From Deltaproteobacteria bacterium (lineage in GTDB: Bacteria; Myxococcota; JADLHZ01): a stretch of DNA of 61,732 nt. A program made the position numbers and the translations under genes. The stretch lies in NCBI GenBank assembly GCA_020848545.1, contig JADLHZ010000010.1, positions 1 to 61,732 of the forward strand, read 5' to 3'. This document shows, in pieces, positions 42,779 through 58,291 of the stretch. The stretch's first letter is position 1. Each line of letters opens with the position of its first letter. Below the pieces are notes generated by a model, which saw only the letters and a list, made by a program, of their open reading frames with translations, was not told where the DNA came from and searched no databases.

Positions 42779-43512
42779 GCTTCGAGGTCATCGCGCTCGG
42801 CGTCGGCGACACCTTCTCGCGCGTGCATCACACGACGTCGCTGCTCTTGCACAAGGACGGCTTCTACCTCGGCGTCGATTGCCCGGACTCCTATCGCAAC
42901 GTCTTGCGCGACGCCGGCGACAAGTGCGGCCGCGCGCTCGATCTCTTCTCGGTCGACGACATCTTGCTCACACACGTGCACGGCGACCACATGAACGGCA
43001 TCGAGGGCGTCGGCTTCTTCAAGCACTTCGCCGAGAAGAAGCGGCTGAAGCTGCACACGACCGAAGACGTACGCTCCGTCATCTGGGATCAGCGCTTGCG
43101 TGCCCCGATGGAGCGGCTGTGGAACGGCAGCGCGTACCGAGAGCTCTCGTTCGACGACTACTTCGACTATCGCCAGCTCGACTGGAGCGCCGAGGCGACG
43201 ATCGGCCCGTTCTCGATCCGCATCCGCCGGACGATTCACCACGTGCCGACGTGCGCGATCCTCGTGCGCTGCGACGGGCGCTCGCTCGGCTACTCGAGCG
43301 ACACCGCGTTCGATCCGTCGTTGATCGACTTTCTCTCCGCCGCGGATCTCGTGATCCACGAGACGAACTACGGTCCGGCCCACACCGCTTACAAAGATCT
43401 CGCCGCGCTGCCTGAAGCGGCGCGGGCGAAGATGCGCCTCATCCACTATCCGGATCAACTCACGGACTCCGTGATCCCCTTGGTCAAAGAGGGCGAGATC
43501 CTCGTTCCGTAG
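42775..43512 (+). CDS. Metallo-beta-lactamase-fold hydrolase
   Basis: A 245-residue MBL-fold protein with the zinc motif THVHGDHMNG (residues 66-75), the Asp in YSSDTAFD and the last His in LIHYPDQL. It resembles ribonuclease Z-like or phosphodiesterase-type MBLs without added domains. The GTG start overlaps the TetR stop by 4 nt. The combination with an oxygenase and a regulator suggests a small-molecule pathway, but the substrate is not known. Confidence 0.9.
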   Translation: MSFEVIALGVGDTFSRVHHTTSLLLHKDGFYLGVDCPDSYRNVLRDAGDKCGRALDLFSVDDILLTHVHGDHMNGIEGVGFFKHFAEKKRLKLHTTEDVRSVIWDQRLRAPMERLWNGSAYRELSFDDYFDYRQLDWSAEATIGPFSIRIRRTIHHVPTCAILVRCDGRSLGYSSDTAFDPSLIDFLSAADLVIHETNYGPAHTAYKDLAALPEAARAKMRLIHYPDQLTDSVIPLVKEGEILVP

Positions 43513-43591
43513 CCCGCGCCGAAATTTTGACGGATCGCTCAGCGTGCCGTAGCGCTCTTTATGGAAGCACTTGCTAGCCAAGGAGCGGCGC

Positions 43592-44722
43592 ATGCAAACC
43601 GAAGAGACGCAACAAAGCTGCCAGACCTGTCAGAAGCAGTTCGTGCCGAAGTTTCGCTTTCAGCTCGCGCAGACCGCGCACGGCACCGCGTACTTTTGCT
43701 CGCAGAAGTGCCGCGGGCCCGAGATCGCAGCGCCGGCGCACCGCCATGACGTGACGTGCGACGCGTGCGCGAAGAGCTTCACGCTCGCGTTCGCGTTCCA
43801 AACGGCGGAGTTCGCCGAGGGCCGCAAGTTCTTCTGCAGCGAGGCGTGCCGGCACACGGCGATGACGCGGGTGAAGCCGGTGTCGTCGAAGCCCGCGCGC
43901 GTGATCGCCGTGCTCAATCAGAAGGGCGGCACCGGCAAGACCACGACCGCCATCAACGTCGCCGCCGGCCTCGCCGAGGCCGCGAACAAGCGCGTGCTGC
44001 TCGTCGACCTCGACGCGCAGGGCAACGTCGGGATCTCGCTCGGCATCAAGGGACCGAAGACGATCTACCACGTGCTCTCGCAAGGCGCCGACCCGGTCGA
44101 GTGCGCCGTGCCGGTGCGCAACAACCTCGACGTCTTGACCAGCGACTACACGCTCGCCGCCGCCGAAGTAGAGCTCGCGCGCAAGGATCGCAGAGCCCAC
44201 GCGCTGGCGATGCGCTTCGGTCAGCTCACGCAGTACGACTACGTGATCCTCGACTGCGCGCCGTCGCTCTCGCTGCTCAATCAGAACGCGCTCACCTACG
44301 CCGCCGAGGTGCTGGTGCCGGTGAGCTGCGATTACCTCTCGCTCGTCGGCGTGAAGCAGGTGCTGCGCACGCTGCAGTACGTGAACGAGATCTTGATGCA
44401 CCCGGTGAAGATCTGCGGCGTGCTGCCCACCTTCTTCGACGTGCGCGCGAAGATCAGCACCGACGCCGTCCAGAACCTGCGCCAGTACTTCAAGGAGCGC
44501 ACGCTGCCGCCGGTGCGCATCAACACGAAGCTGAAAGAAGCGCCGTCGTTCAAGAAGACGGTGTTCGAGCACGCGCCGGAATCGCACGGCGCCCGAGACT
44601 ACGCGCGCGTCGTCGAGTGGGTGGCGAACCTCTCGCAGGTCGAACAAACGACGTCGGCCGACTTGCCGACCGTCACAGTGCCCGCACCCGCCGCGGCCGA
44701 AGCGGTCGAGGTGCGAGGATGA
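43592..44722 (+). CDS. ParA-like ATPase with two N-terminal zinc-finger modules
   Basis: A 376-residue protein. The first 90 residues contain two TRASH/MYM-like zinc modules: C10/C13 with C36/C40 (FCSQKC), and C56/C59 with C82/C86 (FCSEAC). The rest is a ParA/MinD-like P-loop ATPase: KGGTGKTT (111-118), 'VLLVDLDAQGNVG', and 'DYVILDCAPSLSLL'. An AAGGAG ribosome site precedes ATG 43592. It overlaps the RHH gene by 4 nt, giving a ParA-CopG-like pair. Zinc modules on a ParA are uncommon; the pair may position a plasmid, a chromosomal locus or a protein complex. Confidence 0.92.
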   Translation: MQTEETQQSCQTCQKQFVPKFRFQLAQTAHGTAYFCSQKCRGPEIAAPAHRHDVTCDACAKSFTLAFAFQTAEFAEGRKFFCSEACRHTAMTRVKPVSSKPARVIAVLNQKGGTGKTTTAINVAAGLAEAANKRVLLVDLDAQGNVGISLGIKGPKTIYHVLSQGADPVECAVPVRNNLDVLTSDYTLAAAEVELARKDRRAHALAMRFGQLTQYDYVILDCAPSLSLLNQNALTYAAEVLVPVSCDYLSLVGVKQVLRTLQYVNEILMHPVKICGVLPTFFDVRAKISTDAVQNLRQYFKERTLPPVRINTKLKEAPSFKKTVFEHAPESHGARDYARVVEWVANLSQVEQTTSADLPTVTVPAPAAAEAVEVRG

Positions 44723-45844: not shown

Positions 45845-46381
45845 ATGACAGCGACGGGCTTTCGCTGGGCGCTCGGCGCTTGGCTGCTCACGATCTACGG
45901 CACGCTCGGCGTCGTGCGCTTCGTCGTCGATGAGCTGCGCGCGCGGGGGTGGCTCGTCCTCTCCGTCGCGAGTCTCTTCGTGGCGGCCGCTGCTGTTGCG
46001 GCCGTCGCGGTCGCCAAGCGTGCGGCGAGGCCCTGGCGGGCAGCGGTGGCGCTCGCCCTCGTGGCGTTCGTCTACGCTGCGCTTCTATCGACGATGCAGA
46101 GCCCGGAGGAGCGCGCGCACCTCTTCGAGTACGGCCTCGTCGCCCTGCTCGCGTTCGGCGCGTTTCCCGCGCAGCCGTCGTGGCGACGCTACGCCATCGC
46201 CGCGTCGTTCACCGCCGCCGTCGGGTGGCTCGACGAAGGCATCCAGGCGCTCCTGCCGACGCGGTATTACGATCTGCGTGACGTCGGCTTCAACGCGCTC
46301 GCCGGCGCCCTGGCCTGCGCCGCGCACTATGTGGTGATGCGCAGCAGCGCAGCGTCTTCGTCAGGCGTCGCCGGCAGCTGA
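45845..46381 (+). CDS. VanZ-like membrane protein
   Basis: A 178-residue protein with about five membrane helices. 'HLFEYGLVALLAFG' and 'RYYDLRDVGFNALAGALAC' match the VanZ family (small membrane proteins that raise resistance to teicoplanin in Gram-positives; function in other phyla unknown). It converges on the E1-like gene, and their 3' ends overlap by 55 nt (46327-46381). Confidence 0.85.
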   Translation: MTATGFRWALGAWLLTIYGTLGVVRFVVDELRARGWLVLSVASLFVAAAAVAAVAVAKRAARPWRAAVALALVAFVYAALLSTMQSPEERAHLFEYGLVALLAFGAFPAQPSWRRYAIAASFTAAVGWLDEGIQALLPTRYYDLRDVGFNALAGALACAAHYVVMRSSAASSSGVAGS

Positions 46382-47673
46382 AGCGCGTGCGCCGCGACGA
46401 GCGTGCGCCCGCACGTCTCGCATGCGCGATCGCTGCCGGCGAGATCGTCGAGCCCGAGGCGCACGACTTGGCCTGGCCGCGAGATGCCATATGCCGGAGC
46501 ACCGTCACGAACGTCGACCGTGTTGCCGCCGATGAAGCACGTGGTCTGGTCAGCGAGCGCGCGCAAGAACCATGCGCCCCGCTGCTTGCGCGCGAGCTCC
46601 GTCACGCAGGCCATCGCCACGTCGGCGACGCGGCCGGTCTCGATGGCGCTCGCCGGCTCGGCCACGAGGTCCACGTACGTCGCGTCACGCTTGGCCTGGT
46701 CAGGCTCCATGTAAAGAAATTGAGACACTTCATCACTCAGCGCCGGCCGCGACTGGACGCCACGGTGGATGTGGCCGCGAAAGCAATCGTAGCAAGGCGT
46801 GCCGCCCGCGGGATCGACGGCGAGCACTTCGAAGAAGCGCGCCTGCGGATACGCACAGCAGGCGACGTGCGGAACGCCGTGCCAAGAGAGCACGCGCGCG
46901 AGCGCCTGATGGTGATGCGTGCCCGTCGCGAGCACGCAGACGTCCGGCCGATCGCTGCGCAGAAGCCCGTCGAGGAAGGTGGCGTCGGCGGCGATGGGCA
47001 CCGCCCGCACACGCTCAGCGCCAATGCGATCGCGGAGCGCCGTCACCTTCGCGCGCCCGATCTCCTCGGTGCTGAACCACTGCCGCTGCGGGTTGAAGAC
47101 GCTCACCGCCGCAGCGTCCACGATCGTCAGCCGCGCCGCTGTCGCCGCGAGCAGGCGCGCGATCTCGCTGCCCACGCTGCCGGCGCCAACGACGAGCACG
47201 TGCTGGCCGGCGAAGGCGTGAGCGAAGCTGGCCTGCGCCGGCGCTTCAGCAGCGACCGCGAACGGCCATCGCGCGTCGCCGTAGTGTCGCACTCCGCTGG
47301 GAAACGCCGCTCGGCCGAGGAGCGCGTCACGCAGCTCGCGGGCGACTGCGTTCGTGACGAAGCGTGCGCGAACGGCGTCGCGCGGCAGCGTCAGGTGTAC
47401 AATCGCGCCGTCCCACCGCGCGCACGCGTGCTCGCCGGCCTCCGCGATCAACGTGGCGTCGGTGTGGCCGTCGGCGAAGTCGAAGCGCTCGAAGCCGTTG
47501 CGCCAGGTGAGCGCCTCGCGCAGCGGCGCCGATGCACCGGGAAACGATCGCAGCCGACACGACGCGAGCAGCTCGGCCACGTGCGTGTCGCCGATGCAGC
47601 GCACCCGGAAGCGCGAGAGGCCCTCGCCGAGCAAAGGCGCCACGCGCGCAAAGTAGCGTTCTCGTTCGTTCAT
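46327..47673 (-). CDS. E1/ThiF-like activating enzyme of the Ub-like operon
   Basis: A 448-residue protein. Residues 1-150 form an N-terminal domain of unknown fold. The ThiF/E1 adenylation domain follows: nucleotide loop VVGAGSVGSE (161-170), ribose-binding Asp186 (IVDAAAV) and the Asn194/Arg197 pair (VFNPQRQW). Four cysteines (C294/C297 in PCYDC and C418/C421 in CETC) match the structural zinc site of MoeB/UBA4 enzymes. A catalytic cysteine for thioester transfer is plausible but not assigned. It is the last gene of the operon: its ATG overlaps the JAB stop by 4 nt. It would activate a Ub-like protein's C-terminus with ATP. Confidence 0.9.
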   Translation of the reverse strand: MNERERYFARVAPLLGEGLSRFRVRCIGDTHVAELLASCRLRSFPGASAPLREALTWRNGFERFDFADGHTDATLIAEAGEHACARWDGAIVHLTLPRDAVRARFVTNAVARELRDALLGRAAFPSGVRHYGDARWPFAVAAEAPAQASFAHAFAGQHVLVVGAGSVGSEIARLLAATAARLTIVDAAAVSVFNPQRQWFSTEEIGRAKVTALRDRIGAERVRAVPIAADATFLDGLLRSDRPDVCVLATGTHHHQALARVLSWHGVPHVACCAYPQARFFEVLAVDPAGGTPCYDCFRGHIHRGVQSRPALSDEVSQFLYMEPDQAKRDATYVDLVAEPASAIETGRVADVAMACVTELARKQRGAWFLRALADQTTCFIGGNTVDVRDGAPAYGISRPGQVVRLGLDDLAGSDRACETCGRTLVAAHALQLPATPDEDAALLRITT

Positions 47674-48449
47674 GACGCTTCCTCCTTGGCGAGACCGTTG
47701 GCGTCGATCGCAAAGCGCCGCGCCGGTGCCGCCGGAAAATCGCAGGGCACGAAGAGCACTTCGCGCGGCGCGCCGCCTTCCCGCACGACGTAGCGACGCA
47801 CGCCATCGAAGAGCTCGGTCGAACGCACCTCCCGGCCCGCGCGCTGGTGCCGCCGGCACAGCTGCCGCAAGATCGCGCGCGCCGGACGCGAGAGCGGCGG
47901 CTGCAACGCCCACCGGACCAAGGGATCGCCGTCGGGCGTCTTCTGCGCAAAGCCGAGATCGACGACGCGCCGCCCGCCGTCGAGAGCGAAGGTCTGCAAC
48001 GCCCACCCGTCACGCTCGCGGCAAGCGATGAGGCTGAACGAGGTGGCGACGCCGGCGCGCTCGTTCTGCGCCGCGAGCGGCAGCATGTGGCCGTCGTAGT
48101 CGCCGGCAGATGGCCAGGTGCGGCCGAACGCGAACGGATGCGAGTGCAGATACGCCGCCACGCGCAACCGAGGATGCTGCGCCGTCACGCGCTCGACCTC
48201 GCGTTGCATCGTCGCGTCAGCAGACGGGAGCACGCGCACCGCGATCGCCGCGTTCGTCTGCAACGCGGCCGGCACGCGCAACATCCCGGCGATCACCAGC
48301 GCCTCGATCGTCGCCAGCGTGCGCGGCGCGGCGGGCAACGCCGTCGATCGGAGCGCGACCAGTGGCAGGAGCACGCCCTCGGCCGGCGCCACCCGGTCGA
48401 GCTCCGCCGCCATCTCGTCCCATGCACTTTGAGCGATGATGATTCGCAT
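47670..48449 (-). CDS. JAB/JAMM metalloprotease of the Ub-like operon
   Basis: A 259-residue protein. The JAMM active site is complete: Glu24 (APAEGVLLPL) and the H102-x-H104-P...S114-x2-D117 motif in YLHSHPFAFGRTWPSAGD. It therefore should bind zinc and cut isopeptide or peptide bonds at a Ub-like C-terminus. A second half of about 110 residues (starting about FALDGGRRVVDLG) has no recognised motif. It starts 2 nt after the E2 stop and overlaps the E1 start, so the three are one translational unit. Confidence 0.92.
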   Translation of the reverse strand: MRIIIAQSAWDEMAAELDRVAPAEGVLLPLVALRSTALPAAPRTLATIEALVIAGMLRVPAALQTNAAIAVRVLPSADATMQREVERVTAQHPRLRVAAYLHSHPFAFGRTWPSAGDYDGHMLPLAAQNERAGVATSFSLIACRERDGWALQTFALDGGRRVVDLGFAQKTPDGDPLVRWALQPPLSRPARAILRQLCRRHQRAGREVRSTELFDGVRRYVVREGGAPREVLFVPCDFPAAPARRFAIDANGLAKEEAS

Positions 48450-48451
48450 GG

Positions 48452-49126
48452 CTACGACACGATCGCGAAGGCGCTCTTCTTGCCGTTCGCGTAGTTCAAG
48501 AGCTTGATCACGTGCGCGTACGCCCGCTGCTGCAAGGTCTCGCGACAGCTCATCTCGCTCTGCCACTCGCTGCCGGCGAACAGGCACATCTGCTCGTTCG
48601 GCAGCATGTGAAACGCGTGGCTCACTGGTTCCTGCGGCATGCCGGCGACGTGCCGGATGGTCGGCAGGTAGTGCACCTGCACGGGCGCGATCGGAAACGC
48701 TGCCGGCAAGATCGCGACGAGCGGCACCAGCAGGTAGCGTCCGATCGACGGATGCGTGCCGACGACGTGCTGCGCCGGGGGCTTGGTCATGATGGCGTCG
48801 CGGATCGCGCCGAGGCCGTCGAGGCCGATCGGCGGCAGGAGCCCAAACCACGCCGGCCGGTGCGTGTCGCGTTTCGCTTGAAACGGCCGCTCACACGCGA
48901 CGCACCGCACGCCGCGATCGTGCACGAGCACTCCGTTGCATCCGGGGCAACGGACGAGCCTCCCGTCCTTCGCGACGCTGAGCACCCAGCGCCCAAAATG
49001 TTCGCGCATCTCGCTGAGCTCCCGCTCGAGCCGGGCGCCGTCGAAGCCCCACAGCTTCACCACGTTCGCCACGTCGACTTGCCATCGCCGCGGGCCGCTC
49101 GCCGTCGGAAATTGTTGTTCACTCAT
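48452..49126 (-). CDS. E2/UBC-like protein with zinc ribbon
   Basis: A 224-residue protein. Residues 60-78 form a zinc ribbon (C60-x2-C63...C75-x2-C78). The last ~100 residues resemble the prokaryotic E2 group: the strand VQVHYLP, then SHAFHMLPNEQMCLF with the likely catalytic Cys181, and EW followed by a helix with a hydrophobic WL-like end (AHVIKLLNYANGKK). The E2 assignment rests on the HxF-x-LP-x-xxMCLF pattern and its place between adjacent JAB and E1 genes. A clear GGAGG site lies about 8 nt before ATG 49126. It would transfer the modifier from E1 to a target. Confidence 0.8.
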   Translation of the reverse strand: MSEQQFPTASGPRRWQVDVANVVKLWGFDGARLERELSEMREHFGRWVLSVAKDGRLVRCPGCNGVLVHDRGVRCVACERPFQAKRDTHRPAWFGLLPPIGLDGLGAIRDAIMTKPPAQHVVGTHPSIGRYLLVPLVAILPAAFPIAPVQVHYLPTIRHVAGMPQEPVSHAFHMLPNEQMCLFAGSEWQSEMSCRETLQQRAYAHVIKLLNYANGKKSAFAIVS

Positions 49127-49165
49127 GATCGCCTCCGCAAAAAGTTGCAGCCCCGCACAAATCTC

Positions 49166-49182
49166 TCCCCGGTCCCTTTTCG
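49166..49182. repeat. Copy of the 17-nt intergenic motif (see 2015)
   Basis: Identical to 2015-2031. It lies in the 66-nt gap between the small CxCC gene and the E2 gene. The same gap contains no other feature. Confidence 0.6.
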
Positions 49183-49192
49183 CTTCGTTGCG

Positions 49193-49495
49193 TCAGGCGA
49201 AGGTGGCGCGCTCGAGGTTGATCCGCGTCTTGTCGCTCGTGCGCGCCGGCCGGTCGTCCAAGAGATCGGTGGCGGCGAGCGCGGTCGGCGTCGGGGCGAG
49301 CGCGGTCGCGGCGAGCTTGGCGCCGTCGGGACGGAAGACGCCGTCGCCGCGATCCAAGTATGTTTGCTGCGTGGCCGGGCAGTACATGCGCGCGCTGCCG
49401 AGCTGCAGGTGGTTCAAGAGGAGCTTGCTGTCGGCGCAGCAAAAGCACGACGCGTGCACGACTCCGGCGATGATGGCGTTGTTCTCGTTCTGCAT
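49193..49495 (-). CDS. Small CxCC zinc-module protein of the Ub-like operon
   Basis: A 100-residue protein with one zinc-type module: C17-x-C19-C20 and C39 (MYCPATQQTYL). It matches the two C-terminal modules of the 398-aa neighbour, with Tyr46 where those have His. The second half is an Ala/Thr-rich, probably flexible tail. The C-terminus (NLERATFA) is not the GG end of a Ub-like protein. A good ribosome site (GAGGAG) precedes ATG 49495. Function unknown; see the findings for the adaptor hypothesis. Confidence 0.75.
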   Translation of the reverse strand: MQNENNAIIAGVVHASCFCCADSKLLLNHLQLGSARMYCPATQQTYLDRGDGVFRPDGAKLAATALAPTPTALAATDLLDDRPARTSDKTRINLERATFA

Positions 49496-49508
49496 ATTCG
49501 TTCTCCTC

Positions 49509-49528
49509 AAAAAAAACGGTCCTCACCG
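49509..49528 (-). terminator. Weak hairpin with T8 tract inside the operon
   Basis: On the minus strand the sequence reads CGGTGAGGACCG (a 4-bp stem) followed by eight T. It covers the stop codon of the 398-aa gene and precedes the 100-aa gene. The stem is too short for a strong terminator; it may attenuate transcription or be chance. Confidence 0.3.
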
Positions 49529-50719
49529 CGCGCGGGAAATTCCGCTCGCGCTGATCGCCGCCAAACCTTGGTCCAAGAGATCGTCGATGGCTGCCGCGTC
49601 GAAGACGGGCGCCGTCGGCACGAGCACGTAGCCATGCCCGTCGCTCGCGCGGTGCGGCTCCTTGGTCTTGCCGCAGACCACGCGATCGCCGCGCCGCTCC
49701 AAAGGCCGGCGCGGCCGGCAGCACTGGCAGAGCCCGAAGGGAAGATCCTCGATCAGCCGAAAGCCGCGCTCGCCGGCCAAGCGCAGATGCTCTTTCTGCG
49801 AGTGAGCGCAGACGAGCGCATCACTGCCTTGCTCCTGCACGAGCACCTTCTTCGGCAGACAGCACGCGCAAGTGCCGAAGCGCAGGCGTGCGAGATCGAG
49901 AAAGTCGCCGCGCCCGTTCGGTATGAACTCGGCGCCGCACCCTCCGCAACGCAAGCGATAGTCGACCCACGCGACCTGGGCTCGGCAGTGACAGCACGTG
50001 ATGCGCTGCACCGGCGTCGCCCTCGGTGTTTCGGCGGCGAAAGGATCGTGCTCATCACCGAGCGCCAAGAACGGATAGACGATGCCCGCCTGCGGCAGCG
50101 CTCGGTTGCGCGCGCGCTCTTCACCCTGCGGCGCCGGCACCACCTGCGTCGAGATGACCGCGCCGAACGACGTGCCGAAGCGAGGCACCACGCTCACGAG
50201 GTATGCTTCGCCGTTCGCGAGCGCCGGGCAGCGCGTGGCGTCGATGACGACGCTCTTCACCTCGGGCTCGACGCGCATCGTGAGCAGCCGCTCGCCGCCG
50301 AGCGTCGACAGCACGCTGAGCTCGACGTCGTCGATGAAGCCTTTGCCGAGCGACCAGAAGACCGTCAGCCGGCGGTTCTGCGGCATCACGCGCAGCGCCG
50401 AGAGCTTGGCGATGTCGGCCTCGACGCCTTTTTTCTCCGTGTCGATCGCCGCATCGACGCCGAGGCGCGGCGTCACCGAGCGCCAGGGAGAGATCTGCAT
50501 CGTCGCGCCAGCGAGGGTGGCGATCGCGCAGAGGTAGCGTTGGTGGCGCGAGAGGCGCTCGACTTGGTACGCGCCGACTTCACGGCCGAGTCGCATGCGC
50601 AAAAAGCCTGGGACGGCGCCGGTGCGAATGAGCAAGAGGCTGACGCTTTCGGCGGCCTCGGCGGCGCTCCATTCGAAGCGGATGGCGCCGTCTTTGGGGA
50701 CTGAGATCGAGGATTGCAT
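49523..50719 (-). CDS. Multi-zinc-module protein of the Ub-like operon
   Basis: A 398-residue protein. Residues 1-230 look like beta-sandwich domains (for example AIRFEWSAAEAAESVSLLLI and SLGKGFIDDVELSVLSTLGG). A zinc ribbon follows (C242/C243/C245...C258/C261), then two related modules: C284-x-C286-C287...C304-x6-H311 and C331-x-C333-C334...C349-x6-H356, each preceded by FGx and followed by a KPRR-like patch. The neighbour at 49193 has a third copy. The ATG at 50719 is chosen because upstream residues are low-complexity. This architecture is new to me; it could bind a target or act as an E3-like adaptor (inference only). Confidence 0.75.
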   Translation of the reverse strand: MQSSISVPKDGAIRFEWSAAEAAESVSLLLIRTGAVPGFLRMRLGREVGAYQVERLSRHQRYLCAIATLAGATMQISPWRSVTPRLGVDAAIDTEKKGVEADIAKLSALRVMPQNRRLTVFWSLGKGFIDDVELSVLSTLGGERLLTMRVEPEVKSVVIDATRCPALANGEAYLVSVVPRFGTSFGAVISTQVVPAPQGEERARNRALPQAGIVYPFLALGDEHDPFAAETPRATPVQRITCCHCRAQVAWVDYRLRCGGCGAEFIPNGRGDFLDLARLRFGTCACCLPKKVLVQEQGSDALVCAHSQKEHLRLAGERGFRLIEDLPFGLCQCCRPRRPLERRGDRVVCGKTKEPHRASDGHGYVLVPTAPVFDAAAIDDLLDQGLAAISASGISRAR

Positions 50720-50773
50720 CGGAGGGCTCCACGTTGAATTCGGCGACGGCGACGGCGACGGAAACGTCAACGG

Positions 50774-52951
50774 CTACGCGGCCCGTTGTTTGACGGTGCG
50801 CGAGATGTGGCAGAACAACTGGGGCGAGCTCTCGACGATGCGCTTGAAGTCGGCGCCGCGGATGGCGAGCACCTCGCACTCGTCGAGCGTGACGATGCTC
50901 GCGTTGCGCTCCTTGTTCAGGAACGGCGCCGTCTCGCCGATCAACGTGCCGCTCTCGACGATCACTGGCGCGCCGGCGACGAGCAAGGGGTCGGTGCCCT
51001 TGTAGACCTGTACGCGGCCCGCGACGAGCACGAACACCGTGCTCGACTGCGACTTCTCGCGGATCAACGTGGCGCCGGCCTCGATCGTCTTCTTCACCGC
51101 GTGCTCGGCCAAGAGCTGCTTCGCCGTCACGCTGGCGCCGTCGAGCAAGCGCACGCGATCCAACGCCCCGCGCCGCTCCCAGATCTCGGGCAGCACCGAC
51201 GCGAGGGCTTCGCTCTCGGAGAAGCGCTCGAACACTGCAGCCGGAATGCGCATCAACCGCGCCGCAGTGCTCGCCACCACCGTCGCCGAGCGTGGCGCAC
51301 CGCTCACGGCCGCCCGCTCGCCGCAGATCTCCCCGGCGGTGATCGCCGCGACTGGCTTGGCGCTTCCGTCCGCCTGCGCGAGCAACACTGAGAGCTCTCC
51401 CGTCAGCGCCACGATGACGTCACGCCCGAGCTCGCCTTGGCGCATGATCACGTGGCCGGCGTTGACGTTCTCCGCGGTCGCCGCGTCGAGCAGCACGTTC
51501 AAGGCGTCGAGGCTGACCGACTTGAACGCTTGCGTCAGCGCGCGCAGCCCGAGCCCGCGCTCGAGCGCCGTCAGCCGCAGGTGATCGGACGCGATCGTAT
51601 AGCGGTAGCCGGCGCGTCCGAGCGTGTACAACGCCGCCTCCTTCAAGGCGCCGGTGTGCACATAGACCACGTTCGACTCGTTGTTGACGAAGTCGATCGG
51701 CGCGCCGTGGATCGCGCCCTCGCCGGCGTCGGCGACGATGAGATCGCCGCGCCACTCGTAGAGCATCAAGAGGTCCGCGTAGCGCTCGCCCGAGATCGCG
51801 CCCTTCTCGAAGGCCGCCTCGATATGCGCCCGCGAGTCGCTGTCGCCGACGATCAGCGCCTTCTTCGTCGCGCCCCCGCTCGTCACGGAGAGCTCCACGC
51901 CGGTGCACGGGATCGAGTGGAAGGTGTAGTGATAGCGCAGGCGCAGGCCGCAGAAGTCGTAGTCCTTGCCCGGCTCCACGTAGGTGATCTCGAACGCGTC
52001 ATCGAGCAAGCGCTCGGGCTTGTTCACGTCGGCGTTCAGGATCGCCAGCTTCTTCCGCATGATCTCGGCGTTCTCGCGCGAGATGAACAGGCGCAATTTC
52101 TGGCGCGTCTCGAGCAACGCGCTCAAGCCAACCGCGTGGTCTTCGTGCGCGTGGGTGATGACGAGGCCGCTCAGCTGATTCAAGCCGATGCCGGCGTGGT
52201 TCAGCGTCTGGCGGACGTACGGGCCAGCGTCGATGAGGACGAAGCGCCCGTTCGCTTGCACCACTTGGTTGCTACACGGGTTCTTCGCGTCGAAGCCGTT
52301 CGAGGCGCCGAGCATGATGAGCTCGAAGGGCTCCGGCGTCACCGGCCGCGTCGCCGGCGCGAGCGAGTAGGTGGGCGTTTGCCCGGCCGGCACCTCGAGA
52401 CGCAGCTCGTCGATGCGATCGCTCGCGGTGAAGAACGAGTACACGTTGTCGCCGTGGCGCTTCACCGACAGCTCGCCGAGCTTGGCGACGCCTTCAGTGT
52501 CGTAGAAGACGGGCTCCAAGAACTCCTCGATCGGCGCCACGCTGCCGTCCTTCTTCTTCAGCGCGAGGTAGTCGCTCTCCTTGGCGAGCATCTCGGCAAT
52601 CTCGGCCTTCACGCCGGCGCCGCGCATCTCGTCGCGCGAAAGGCCGAGCAAGGTCAGGCGCAGATACTCGACGACGTCTTTCCACTGCGAGCGCTCGACG
52701 ATGACCGGCATCTTCTCGCCGCGCCCGAAGGTGCCGCGGACGAAGAGCGCGTGATAGAGCGGGAATTCCAGAGCCCACTGTACGATGCCGTGCGCGGTGC
52801 GAACGTCCGGGATGATCCAGCCGTTCACCTGCGCGCCGCTCTTCATCCACGCTTTGACGATCTCTTCGGGAAAGCCGAGGCCGAGGCGGTGCTCGCCGGC
52901 TTCGATCACCTTCGCACCCGCCATCACGTCTTTGACTTCGATGTTCACCAC
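50774..52951 (-). CDS. MBL-fold protein with two cyclic-nucleotide-binding domains
   Basis: A 725-residue protein heading the operon. Residues 1-150 are unrecognised; residues about 200-475 are a metallo-beta-lactamase fold with HAHEDH (267-272), DSDS and SDHLRL sites; two cNMP-binding domains follow (about 485-600, FxxGE-like 'IMRQGELGRDVIVALTGELSVL', and about 615-725, 'LIREKSQSSTVFVLVAGRVQVY'). It starts with GTG, preceded by a strong AAGGAGG ribosome site, fitting the first gene of a transcript. It may sense a cyclic nucleotide and hydrolyse a nucleotide or nucleic acid; neither is shown. The gene is 54 nt upstream of the 398-aa gene. Confidence 0.9.
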   Translation of the reverse strand: MVNIEVKDVMAGAKVIEAGEHRLGLGFPEEIVKAWMKSGAQVNGWIIPDVRTAHGIVQWALEFPLYHALFVRGTFGRGEKMPVIVERSQWKDVVEYLRLTLLGLSRDEMRGAGVKAEIAEMLAKESDYLALKKKDGSVAPIEEFLEPVFYDTEGVAKLGELSVKRHGDNVYSFFTASDRIDELRLEVPAGQTPTYSLAPATRPVTPEPFELIMLGASNGFDAKNPCSNQVVQANGRFVLIDAGPYVRQTLNHAGIGLNQLSGLVITHAHEDHAVGLSALLETRQKLRLFISRENAEIMRKKLAILNADVNKPERLLDDAFEITYVEPGKDYDFCGLRLRYHYTFHSIPCTGVELSVTSGGATKKALIVGDSDSRAHIEAAFEKGAISGERYADLLMLYEWRGDLIVADAGEGAIHGAPIDFVNNESNVVYVHTGALKEAALYTLGRAGYRYTIASDHLRLTALERGLGLRALTQAFKSVSLDALNVLLDAATAENVNAGHVIMRQGELGRDVIVALTGELSVLLAQADGSAKPVAAITAGEICGERAAVSGAPRSATVVASTAARLMRIPAAVFERFSESEALASVLPEIWERRGALDRVRLLDGASVTAKQLLAEHAVKKTIEAGATLIREKSQSSTVFVLVAGRVQVYKGTDPLLVAGAPVIVESGTLIGETAPFLNKERNASIVTLDECEVLAIRGADFKRIVESSPQLFCHISRTVKQRAA

Positions 52952-56968: not shown

Positions 56969-58291
56969 TCAGTACACGAAGGGCAGCATGCGCCAGCGCA
57001 CCGTCTCTTTGTACGTCTGCCAATCGCGGCCGTACTTCTTCTCGCAGCGGAGATCGTCACGGCCGGCGCGATCGACGAGCAAGATCGTGAGGAAGAAGAG
57101 GTAGAACCACGGCAGCGCGTGCGCGAAGCCGACCGGCGCGATCCAGCACGCGGCGAGCGTGAGCTCCGGCACGTAGTGGAAGTGCCGCGCGATGCCCCAC
57201 CAGCCGTTCGCGAGCAGCAGGTTCTCGTGCTGCTTGCCGTCGCCCGTCGTGTAGCGCGCCTTGATCAAGAGCGGCGCCTTGCCCCACACCGTGGTCTTGC
57301 CGTTCGTCGCGCGCACGCGTTGGCGCTGCGCATCCGCGTCATAGTTCACCCAAATCGCGAAGACGCCGAAGACGAAGAGCGCGAGCGCGAGCGGCCACGC
57401 CATGTGCGACGGGTGCGTCACGAGGAACATCGTGCTCAGCGTGTAGACGCACGGCACCCACGCCATGACGCCCCAGCAAATGTAGTAGCCGAAGCGATCG
57501 TGCATGATGTCGAGCGAGGTGAAGTAGCCGCTCTCCCAGTAGAAGAACTTGAAGAGATAGACGTTCTGCAGCGCGACGGCGACGAGCATGCCGTTCGACA
57601 CGGTGCCGTAGAGCTCGAGCTCTTTGAACGCGTACGAGACGACCATCACGCTCCAGCCCATCATCGAGAAGCGGCAGTTCAGGAGTTGCTTCAAGCCAAC
57701 GCCGAACAAGCGCGGGTGGAGCTCGGTGCCCCAGAAGTAGTCGAACACCGGGTTGCCGGTCTTGCCCGCGTCGCTCGAGGACGGAAAGTACGCGCCTTTG
57801 AAGTAGAGGAACAAACAGAAGGCGAGCGCGAACAGGCAGAGCGTGGACAGGATGGCGCCCAGGTGATCGTAGACGATCGCCGGCGAGAACCAGCCAAGGC
57901 CCGCCGACAAGCCGATGAACGCCGCGTGCGTGACGAAGTACGCAGCGACGCCGTTCAGCTTGTACTCGGGGCGATTCCCTGCGGGGGTGATCGGACCCAA
58001 GAACTTCTTCCCTGGCAACGCGAGCATCAAGACGAGCTCGAACGCCAAGAAGGCGAAGATGATGCCGAGCGCGGGGAGGCTCGGCGCCGGCAGGTTCTGG
58101 ACGATCGTCGTGACACCCTCGGCGCTCAGCATGCGCAGGAGCGACCCGTCCAAGAAGACGATCGTCCCCCAGAGCGCGATGACCAGGGGCGGGGTGACCA
58201 AGAGCAAGAAGAGCGGAAACACGCTCGTTCTGAAGGTGGTGGCGAAGAAGCCGTCGCGCGCAGGAGCCTGGCCCAGGGTCGTCGTCGTCAT
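56969..58291 (-). CDS. 7-dehydrocholesterol reductase-like sterol reductase
   Basis: A 440-residue membrane protein of the ERG4/ERG24 family. The C-terminal signatures LLANGWWGIARHFHYVPEL and DRAGRDDLRCEKKYGRDW match DHCR7 and plant DWF5 rather than the C14-reductase group, whose equivalent reads RHPNY. About nine membrane helices are visible. It would reduce the delta-7 double bond of a sterol with NADPH. No other sterol gene is in the window. The start is divergent from the PuuD-like gene across about 230 nt. Confidence 0.92.
   Translation of the reverse strand: MTTTTLGQAPARDGFFATTFRTSVFPLFLLLVTPPLVIALWGTIVFLDGSLLRMLSAEGVTTIVQNLPAPSLPALGIIFAFLAFELVLMLALPGKKFLGPITPAGNRPEYKLNGVAAYFVTHAAFIGLSAGLGWFSPAIVYDHLGAILSTLCLFALAFCLFLYFKGAYFPSSSDAGKTGNPVFDYFWGTELHPRLFGVGLKQLLNCRFSMMGWSVMVVSYAFKELELYGTVSNGMLVAVALQNVYLFKFFYWESGYFTSLDIMHDRFGYYICWGVMAWVPCVYTLSTMFLVTHPSHMAWPLALALFVFGVFAIWVNYDADAQRQRVRATNGKTTVWGKAPLLIKARYTTGDGKQHENLLLANGWWGIARHFHYVPELTLAACWIAPVGFAHALPWFYLFFLTILLVDRAGRDDLRCEKKYGRDWQTYKETVRWRMLPFVY

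Follow-up and report, generated by a model that had tools for sequence, protein, structure and literature searches.

Which protein would be conjugated by a set of E1-, E2- and JAB-like enzymes encoded without an evident ubiquitin relative was the question raised by a six-gene locus of a Deltaproteobacteria bacterium (Myxococcota; JADLHZ01; assembly GCA_020848545.1, contig JADLHZ010000010.1). The entire 61,732-nucleotide stretch of DNA that was analyzed is referred to as the window. On its minus strand, positions 46327-52951 hold six open reading frames that encode, in this order, a protein combining a metallo-beta-lactamase (MBL) domain with two cyclic-nucleotide-binding (cNMP) domains, a zinc protein, a small CxCC protein, an E2-like enzyme, a JAB/JAMM-like peptidase, and an E1-like adenylating enzyme (Table 1). 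Number, position and order of these frames agreed with a first-pass annotation, which had interpreted them as one E1-E2-JAB pathway. That interpretation was supported by conservation of the cassette, the E1 motifs, a predicted UBC fold in the E2 and the JAMM motif. We propose, with a probability of roughly 45%, that the cassette is a self-contained, reversible protein-conjugation pathway with the CxCC protein as its modifier.

Conservation and distribution of the cassette

Relatives of the cassette were recovered by a genome-contig search with an alignment of the zinc protein; a genome-contig search with a single E2 sequence gave no matches. Homologues of all six genes were found in identical order in two other genomes (G012, locus L006; G003, locus L008), and in a third (G005) they were divided over two short contigs, with the MBL, zinc and CxCC genes on one and the E2, JAB and E1 genes on the other. 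That all six genes and their order are retained across these genomes shows the cassette to be a real conserved unit, beyond chance. Homologues of the six genes elsewhere showed 39-57% identity to the window's proteins, and identities among cassette members overall were 35-61%. The first-pass annotation had named neighborhoods lacking joint E1, E2 and JAB genes as a ground for abandoning its reading; these three genes occurred together in all cassette copies.

When 193 genomes from the phylum of the window were searched with profiles, the CxCC protein, the zinc protein and the JAB protein were each detected in one identical set of four genomes, with no match outside it. The E2 search returned these four genomes and one extra match in G052, which covered the zinc ribbon alone, contained an internal stop and was treated as spurious. 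Flanking genes were unlike one another between cassette-bearing genomes; gene order within the cassette was kept. A fifth copy, comprising genes for the zinc protein (truncated by the contig end), CxCC protein, E2, JAB and E1, was found in a bin of another phylum, Candidatus Riflebacteria, and its distance to the copy in the window did not exceed that of the remaining copies. RecA encoded on the same contig showed 72% identity to a genome of its own phylum and 63-69% to genomes of the window's phylum, a pattern that modestly favors horizontal transfer of the cassette over mis-binning. Transfer of the cassette as one unit would account for both the closeness of this copy to that of the window and a RecA nearest to its own group. 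The cassette is rare, and in the phylum of the Riflebacteria bin it was present in one of 40 genomes.

Successive genes of the cassette were separated by 54, 27, 66 and 2 nucleotides, followed by a 4-nucleotide overlap of the JAB and E1 genes; the 2-nucleotide gap and the overlap had already been recorded in the first reading of the window. Because of these short gaps and the overlap, the six genes are likely to form a single transcription unit. In G003, ClpA- and ClpS-like genes lie some kb downstream of the cassette (L008, 3797-6438); none were seen beside the other copies.

Predicted activating, conjugating and deconjugating enzymes

The E1-like protein matched the Pfam ThiF family (6.1e-13) and the PADLOC E1-E2 model (2.9e-14). 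An N-terminal domain of about 150 residues is followed by the ThiF domain with its GxGSxGSE and NPxRQ motifs and a Lys, while two zinc-binding pairs (C294/C297 and C418/C421) bracket a candidate catalytic cysteine, Cys379, in a TTC motif. This would be the place that the catalytic cysteine occupies in enzymes of the MoeB and E1 types. Its nearest solved structures by sequence were MoeB, TcdA, NEDD8-E1, ThiF and ATG7, with Cap2 among the weaker PDB matches. The ThiF/E1 adenylation and zinc motifs were present and complete, as had been stated earlier for adenylation, and the nucleotide-binding, zinc and TTC379 residues were invariant in four homologues.

No E2 family in Pfam matched the 224-residue E2-like protein. 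A scan of the window's genome with PF14461 gave no match and is uninformative, since the control gave none either. PADLOC E2 models matched four of five homologues, with a best E-value of 3.7e-4 over residues 142-202. An AlphaFold model, built from five sequences and of low confidence (predicted local distance difference test, pLDDT, 57), was used for structural comparison. Among the 50 top-ranking rows of the structural alignment, almost all were UBC or UEV domains, with a best Z of 8.5 over 133 residues; Foldseek gave nothing below 1e-3, yet the entries that it listed were also UBC or UEV domains. A weak profile match to UBE2G2 was located on the Pro-rich strand ahead of the active site. A zinc ribbon (C60, C63, C75, C78) follows the first helix as an apparent insertion ahead of the active-site half, and H170, H173 and C181 were invariant in five homologues. 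These results give moderate support for a UBC fold, the absence of which from this frame would have counted against the first-pass reading, with C181 as predicted catalytic cysteine.

None of the family libraries searched, including Pfam and NCBIfam, gave a JAB family match for the 259-residue peptidase-like protein. The predicted metal-site residues (E24, H102-S-H104, S114, D117) followed an E/HSHP/S/D pattern that was invariant in five homologues, and BRCC36 was weakly matched in this JAMM region by a PDB profile search (E 0.94). Spacing within the motif was atypical, with nine residues from the second His to the Ser versus seven usually, and a Ser-Asp spacing of 2 or 5. The JAMM motif, initially described as complete, thus contained all its residues but not in canonical spacing. 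In two JAB homologues, the C-terminal stretch matched E2 regions of PADLOC models (E 8.5e-4 and 0.019); no match of this stretch was found in the PDB. This hints at a possible half E2, lacking the cysteine, within the JAB protein. A further JAB-domain frame (26.1 bits) was observed elsewhere in the window's genome (contig C152, 21363-21620).

The CxCC protein as candidate modifier

None of the six proteins matched a ubiquitin family in Pfam or NCBIfam. The CxCC protein consists of a predicted zinc core (residues about 8-62, including C17, C19, C20 and C39) followed by a flexible tail. The tail motif (Table 1) was common to all five copies in the alignment. In three of these, ATFA forms the stop-adjacent end, and in the other two it is extended by 5 (SGSEN) or 16 residues, of which the longer extension reaches into the beginning of the E2 gene. 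A sequence that is kept up to one residue and varies beyond it is the pattern that would be expected of a processed, reactive C-terminus. A precedent exists in cyclic-oligonucleotide-based anti-phage signaling systems (CBASS), in which cGAS, although not a beta-grasp protein, is bound to Cap2 as a thioester through the Gly or Ala at its C-terminus and is removed by Cap3 (PMC10097602). Because of the invariant, Ala-ending tail with its variable extensions and the CBASS precedent, the CxCC protein is proposed as the modifier. As this anatomy is what would be expected of a conjugated protein, the earlier statement that the locus lacks a visible modifier is probably wrong.

The model of the CxCC protein had five strands up to residue 60 and no helix, and pLDDT was below 50 for most of the tail. 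As a helix was absent, the protein showed, at low confidence, no sign of a beta-grasp fold; Foldseek gave no match above noise. Alignment of its core with the two CxCC repeats of the 398-residue zinc protein yielded HHalign probabilities of 45-50%, and the two are probably related.

In the zinc protein itself, an N-terminal half without a family match is followed by three zinc modules, of which repeats 1 and 2 are homologous to each other (HHalign 97%), and by a C-terminal VFDAAAIDDLLDxGLAxI motif. It is possibly a scaffold or an E3-like factor. In G003 the corresponding gene is broken by an apparent frameshift (L008, 11272-12487), reflecting either assembly error or decay.

In the proposed pathway, the E1 would adenylate the C-terminal alanine of the CxCC protein and hold the latter on Cys379, from where it would pass to Cys181 of the E2. 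The zinc ribbon of the E2 and the zinc protein, with its related CxCC modules, may help to dock the CxCC protein and to choose targets. The JAB protein would trim CxCC precursors with residues beyond ATFA and would also take the CxCC protein off its targets.

In E1-E2 systems, the modifiers known so far mostly have a beta-grasp fold, which would fit an arrangement in which the cassette's enzymes conjugate such a modifier encoded elsewhere and the CxCC protein is an adaptor, its tail serving as a docking peptide. The kinship of the CxCC core with the zinc modules of the zinc protein would also suit an adaptor. Described cassettes with a dedicated modifier, however, carry it within the operon, as do operon types 6d and 6e (PMC1779556) and the Bil operon with BilA (PMC11354881). 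A further point against it is that the tail is kept up to one residue and followed by variable extensions, and we regard this arrangement as unlikely.

Activation of the CxCC C-terminus by the ThiF-type E1 could alternatively serve thiocarboxylate or peptide chemistry, with the JAB protein trimming the tail, in a sulfur-carrier or peptide-maturation pathway for which QbsE/QbsD and CysO/Mec-type systems are models. Among proteins of solved structure, MoeB and TcdA are indeed closest to the E1, and the residues beyond ATFA could be trimmed. To our knowledge, however, an E2 with invariant His and Cys, as conserved in the cassette, has no role in sulfur transfer, and the cassette contains neither a sulfurtransferase nor a biosynthetic gene, which makes such a pathway quite improbable.

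The MBL-cNMP protein

The MBL-cNMP gene was first in the cassette in all four copies of the window's phylum. In three aligned operon copies, the putative metal-binding residues H267, H269, D271, H272, H345, D370 and H432 and both cNMP phosphate cassettes were invariant. The MBL domain matched an RNase Z model at 1e-12, under its cut-off, and the Pfam Apyc1 family at 27 bits (cut-off 50); Apyc1 in the PDB matched it at 1.1e-7. Pfam matches to cNMP domains and the zinc-module alignments confirmed that, as first noted, the locus adds cyclic-nucleotide-binding domains and zinc modules to the E1-E2-JAB set. On weaker grounds than for the other components, the protein may be a cyclic-nucleotide-gated phosphodiesterase or nuclease that is a target of the conjugation, regulates it or serves as its effector; the most plausible setting would be a response to stress or to phage.

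Among relatives of this protein outside the cassette (L089-L097), the distant L094 and L095 adjoin a response-regulator-like gene; in L090, similarity ends after residue 453 and cNMP domains may be absent. A second metallo-beta-lactamase is encoded on the plus strand of the window (42781-43512), about 3 kb from the cassette end, and scored above the Pfam cut-off (58.7 bits) for the Apyc1 family of cyclic-nucleotide-degrading enzymes.

Assessment of the proposed pathway

Several observations weigh against the CxCC-conjugation pathway. Only five copies of the cassette are known, and the four besides that of the window come from metagenome bins. The C-terminus of the CxCC protein is FA, not GG, and its fold model was of low confidence (pLDDT 57). 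The identity of the putative JAB peptidase relies mainly on conserved motifs; HHalign against 27 Prok-JAB proteins aligned 11 columns (P 0.004), the HSHP stretch alone. For the putative role in defence, no relatives of the cassette were found in viral, phage and plasmid sequence collections. The weakest link is the role of the MBL-cNMP protein in the pathway. Its N-terminal domain was found in 13 of the 193 genomes, nine of which have the protein without the cassette, and the protein was not found in the Riflebacteria genome, whose cassette contig stops within the zinc-protein gene. In the nine genomes, no other cassette genes were found near the MBL gene, and profile searches detected the CxCC, zinc and JAB proteins nowhere in the genome. 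The notion of the MBL-cNMP gene as an exclusive head gene of the cassette, as it had first been annotated, was dropped since the family is present in genomes without the rest of the set; the protein is best seen as a recruited, separable partner.

That the MBL-cNMP protein is a cyclic-nucleotide-activated effector of a signaling and defence cassette, and that it or the zinc protein is conjugated instead of the CxCC protein, might be suggested by the best PADLOC matches of its cNMP domains (PycTIR and TIR effectors), by its Apyc1/RNase Z-like MBL domain and by CBASS, where the cyclase itself is conjugated (PMC10097602), but deserves little credence given the absence of a cyclase from the cassette and of a SMODS cyclase from the genome, the weaker conservation of the MBL and zinc proteins at their C-termini compared with the CxCC protein, and the presence of the MBL family without the cassette.

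Perhaps the proposed CxCC-conjugation pathway has an accessory, transferred function such as defence, since its rarity, scattered distribution and unrelated flanks would fit such a role. The cNMP domains, like the related 6A-MBL and CBASS systems (see below), also point towards such a function. An alternative role may lie in protein quality control. More tentatively, the cassette could represent an E1-E2-JAB system with a dedicated zinc-finger modifier without a ubiquitin fold, activation of a C-terminal Ala, a scaffold of related zinc modules and a coupled cyclic-nucleotide-gated metallo-hydrolase. Should the modifier be the CxCC protein, a ubiquitin fold would not be required for ubiquitin-like conjugation, not even where a small protein is dedicated to that purpose, and CBASS would no longer be an isolated case. 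Other E1-E2 operons 'without a modifier', those of type 6a included, would then merit a search for invariant C-termini, and a single cassette would tie protein conjugation to cyclic-nucleotide sensing.

Outside the cassette, the window encodes a ParA-type ATPase with two short zinc-finger-like motifs at its N-terminus (43589-44722, plus strand) and a homologue of the ERG4/ERG24 sterol reductase family (56969-58291, minus strand; E 1.3e-73).

Table 1. Positions in the window of the six cassette genes and of features within them.
Feature	Position	Strand	Length	Description or basis
MBL-cNMP protein	50774..52951	-	725 aa	Pfam cNMP 7.8e-30, Lactamase_B 2.3e-8
N-terminal domain of MBL protein	52337..52951	-		no sequence relative in Pfam or PDB
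Metallo-beta-lactamase domain, RNase Z/Apyc1-like	51632..52327	-		H267xHxDH272, H345, D370, H432
cNMP-binding domain 1	51209..51469	-		phosphate cassette G544-E545 ... R554-S-A
cNMP-binding domain 2	50783..51121	-		phosphate cassette G672-E673 ... R682-N-A
Zinc protein	49523..50719	-	398 aa	length counted from ATG; homologue alignment
CxCC protein, candidate modifier	49193..49495	-	100 aa	alignment and model
Conserved C-terminal tail of CxCC protein	49196..49255	-		DRP...KTRIxLExATFA, at stop in window copy
E2-like enzyme	48452..49126	-	224 aa	PADLOC E2 models and fold
Predicted active-site region of E2	48584..48619	-		S169-H170-x2-H173-x7-C181-L-F
JAB/JAMM-like peptidase	47670..48449	-	259 aa	motif invariant in five homologues
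C-terminal stretch of JAB protein	47715..47837	-		resembles first half of E2 fold, no catalytic Cys
E1-like adenylating enzyme	46327..47673	-	448 aa	Pfam ThiF, PADLOC E1-E2

Comparison with known systems

The closest described arrangement is the type 6a operon, in which one E2-E1-JAB triple-module protein is encoded beside a metallo-beta-lactamase (Iyer et al., 2006; PMC1779556) and which is apparently what NCBIfam names the '6A-MBL' anti-phage system. Both the type 6a operon and the cassette combine E2, E1, JAB and MBL in one operon, and type 6a is likewise without a described beta-grasp modifier. In contrast to the single polypeptide of type 6a, E1, E2 and JAB of the cassette are encoded by three separate genes. 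The cassette furthermore adds the zinc and CxCC proteins, and its MBL protein bears two cNMP domains and an N-terminal domain without a known relative. The best NCBIfam match of the E1 was the 6A-MBL protein NF058523 (3.9e-11), at 42.2 bits versus a cut-off of 320. Despite the adjacent MBL gene, membership of the fused 6A-MBL systems was therefore rejected on the basis of this score and the three separate genes.

With type II CBASS, in which Cap2 is the E1-E2 and Cap3 the JAB protein, the cassette would share its predicted chemistry, in which the C-terminal Gly or Ala of a protein without a beta-grasp fold is activated, conjugated and removed. Unlike type II CBASS, it has no CD-NTase and no CBASS effector, and its E1 and E2 are not fused as they are in Cap2. 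None of the six proteins is a CD-NTase, and no SMODS match was found in the whole genome, in a search in which control genomes gave matches. Membership of type II CBASS was rejected because a CD-NTase and a fused Cap2 were absent. Family searches with the six proteins agreed with the initial view that the locus lacks a CBASS core and a cyclase or nuclease effector, as far as effectors of known kind are concerned.

BilABCD resembles the cassette in encoding E1, E2 and JAB as separate genes. It differs in that the cassette has no visible ubiquitin-like protein and its E2 carries an inserted zinc ribbon and lacks the CEHH motif of BilB, in which the catalytic Cys is followed downstream by Glu and His residues (PMC11354881). 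In the E2 of the cassette, the invariant His residues (H170, H173) lie upstream of C181, and no invariant Glu or His was found at +6, +8 or +13. Membership of BilABCD was rejected in the absence of a beta-grasp, BilA-like protein and of the CEHH arrangement. The MBL-cNMP protein resembles Apyc1 and RNase Z-like MBLs in its MBL domain, and the PKA regulatory subunit and PycTIR in its tandem cNMP domains; unlike either group, it joins both in one chain. The cassette represents a novel form of prokaryotic E1-E2-JAB system, distinct from CBASS, Bil and fused 6A-MBL systems.

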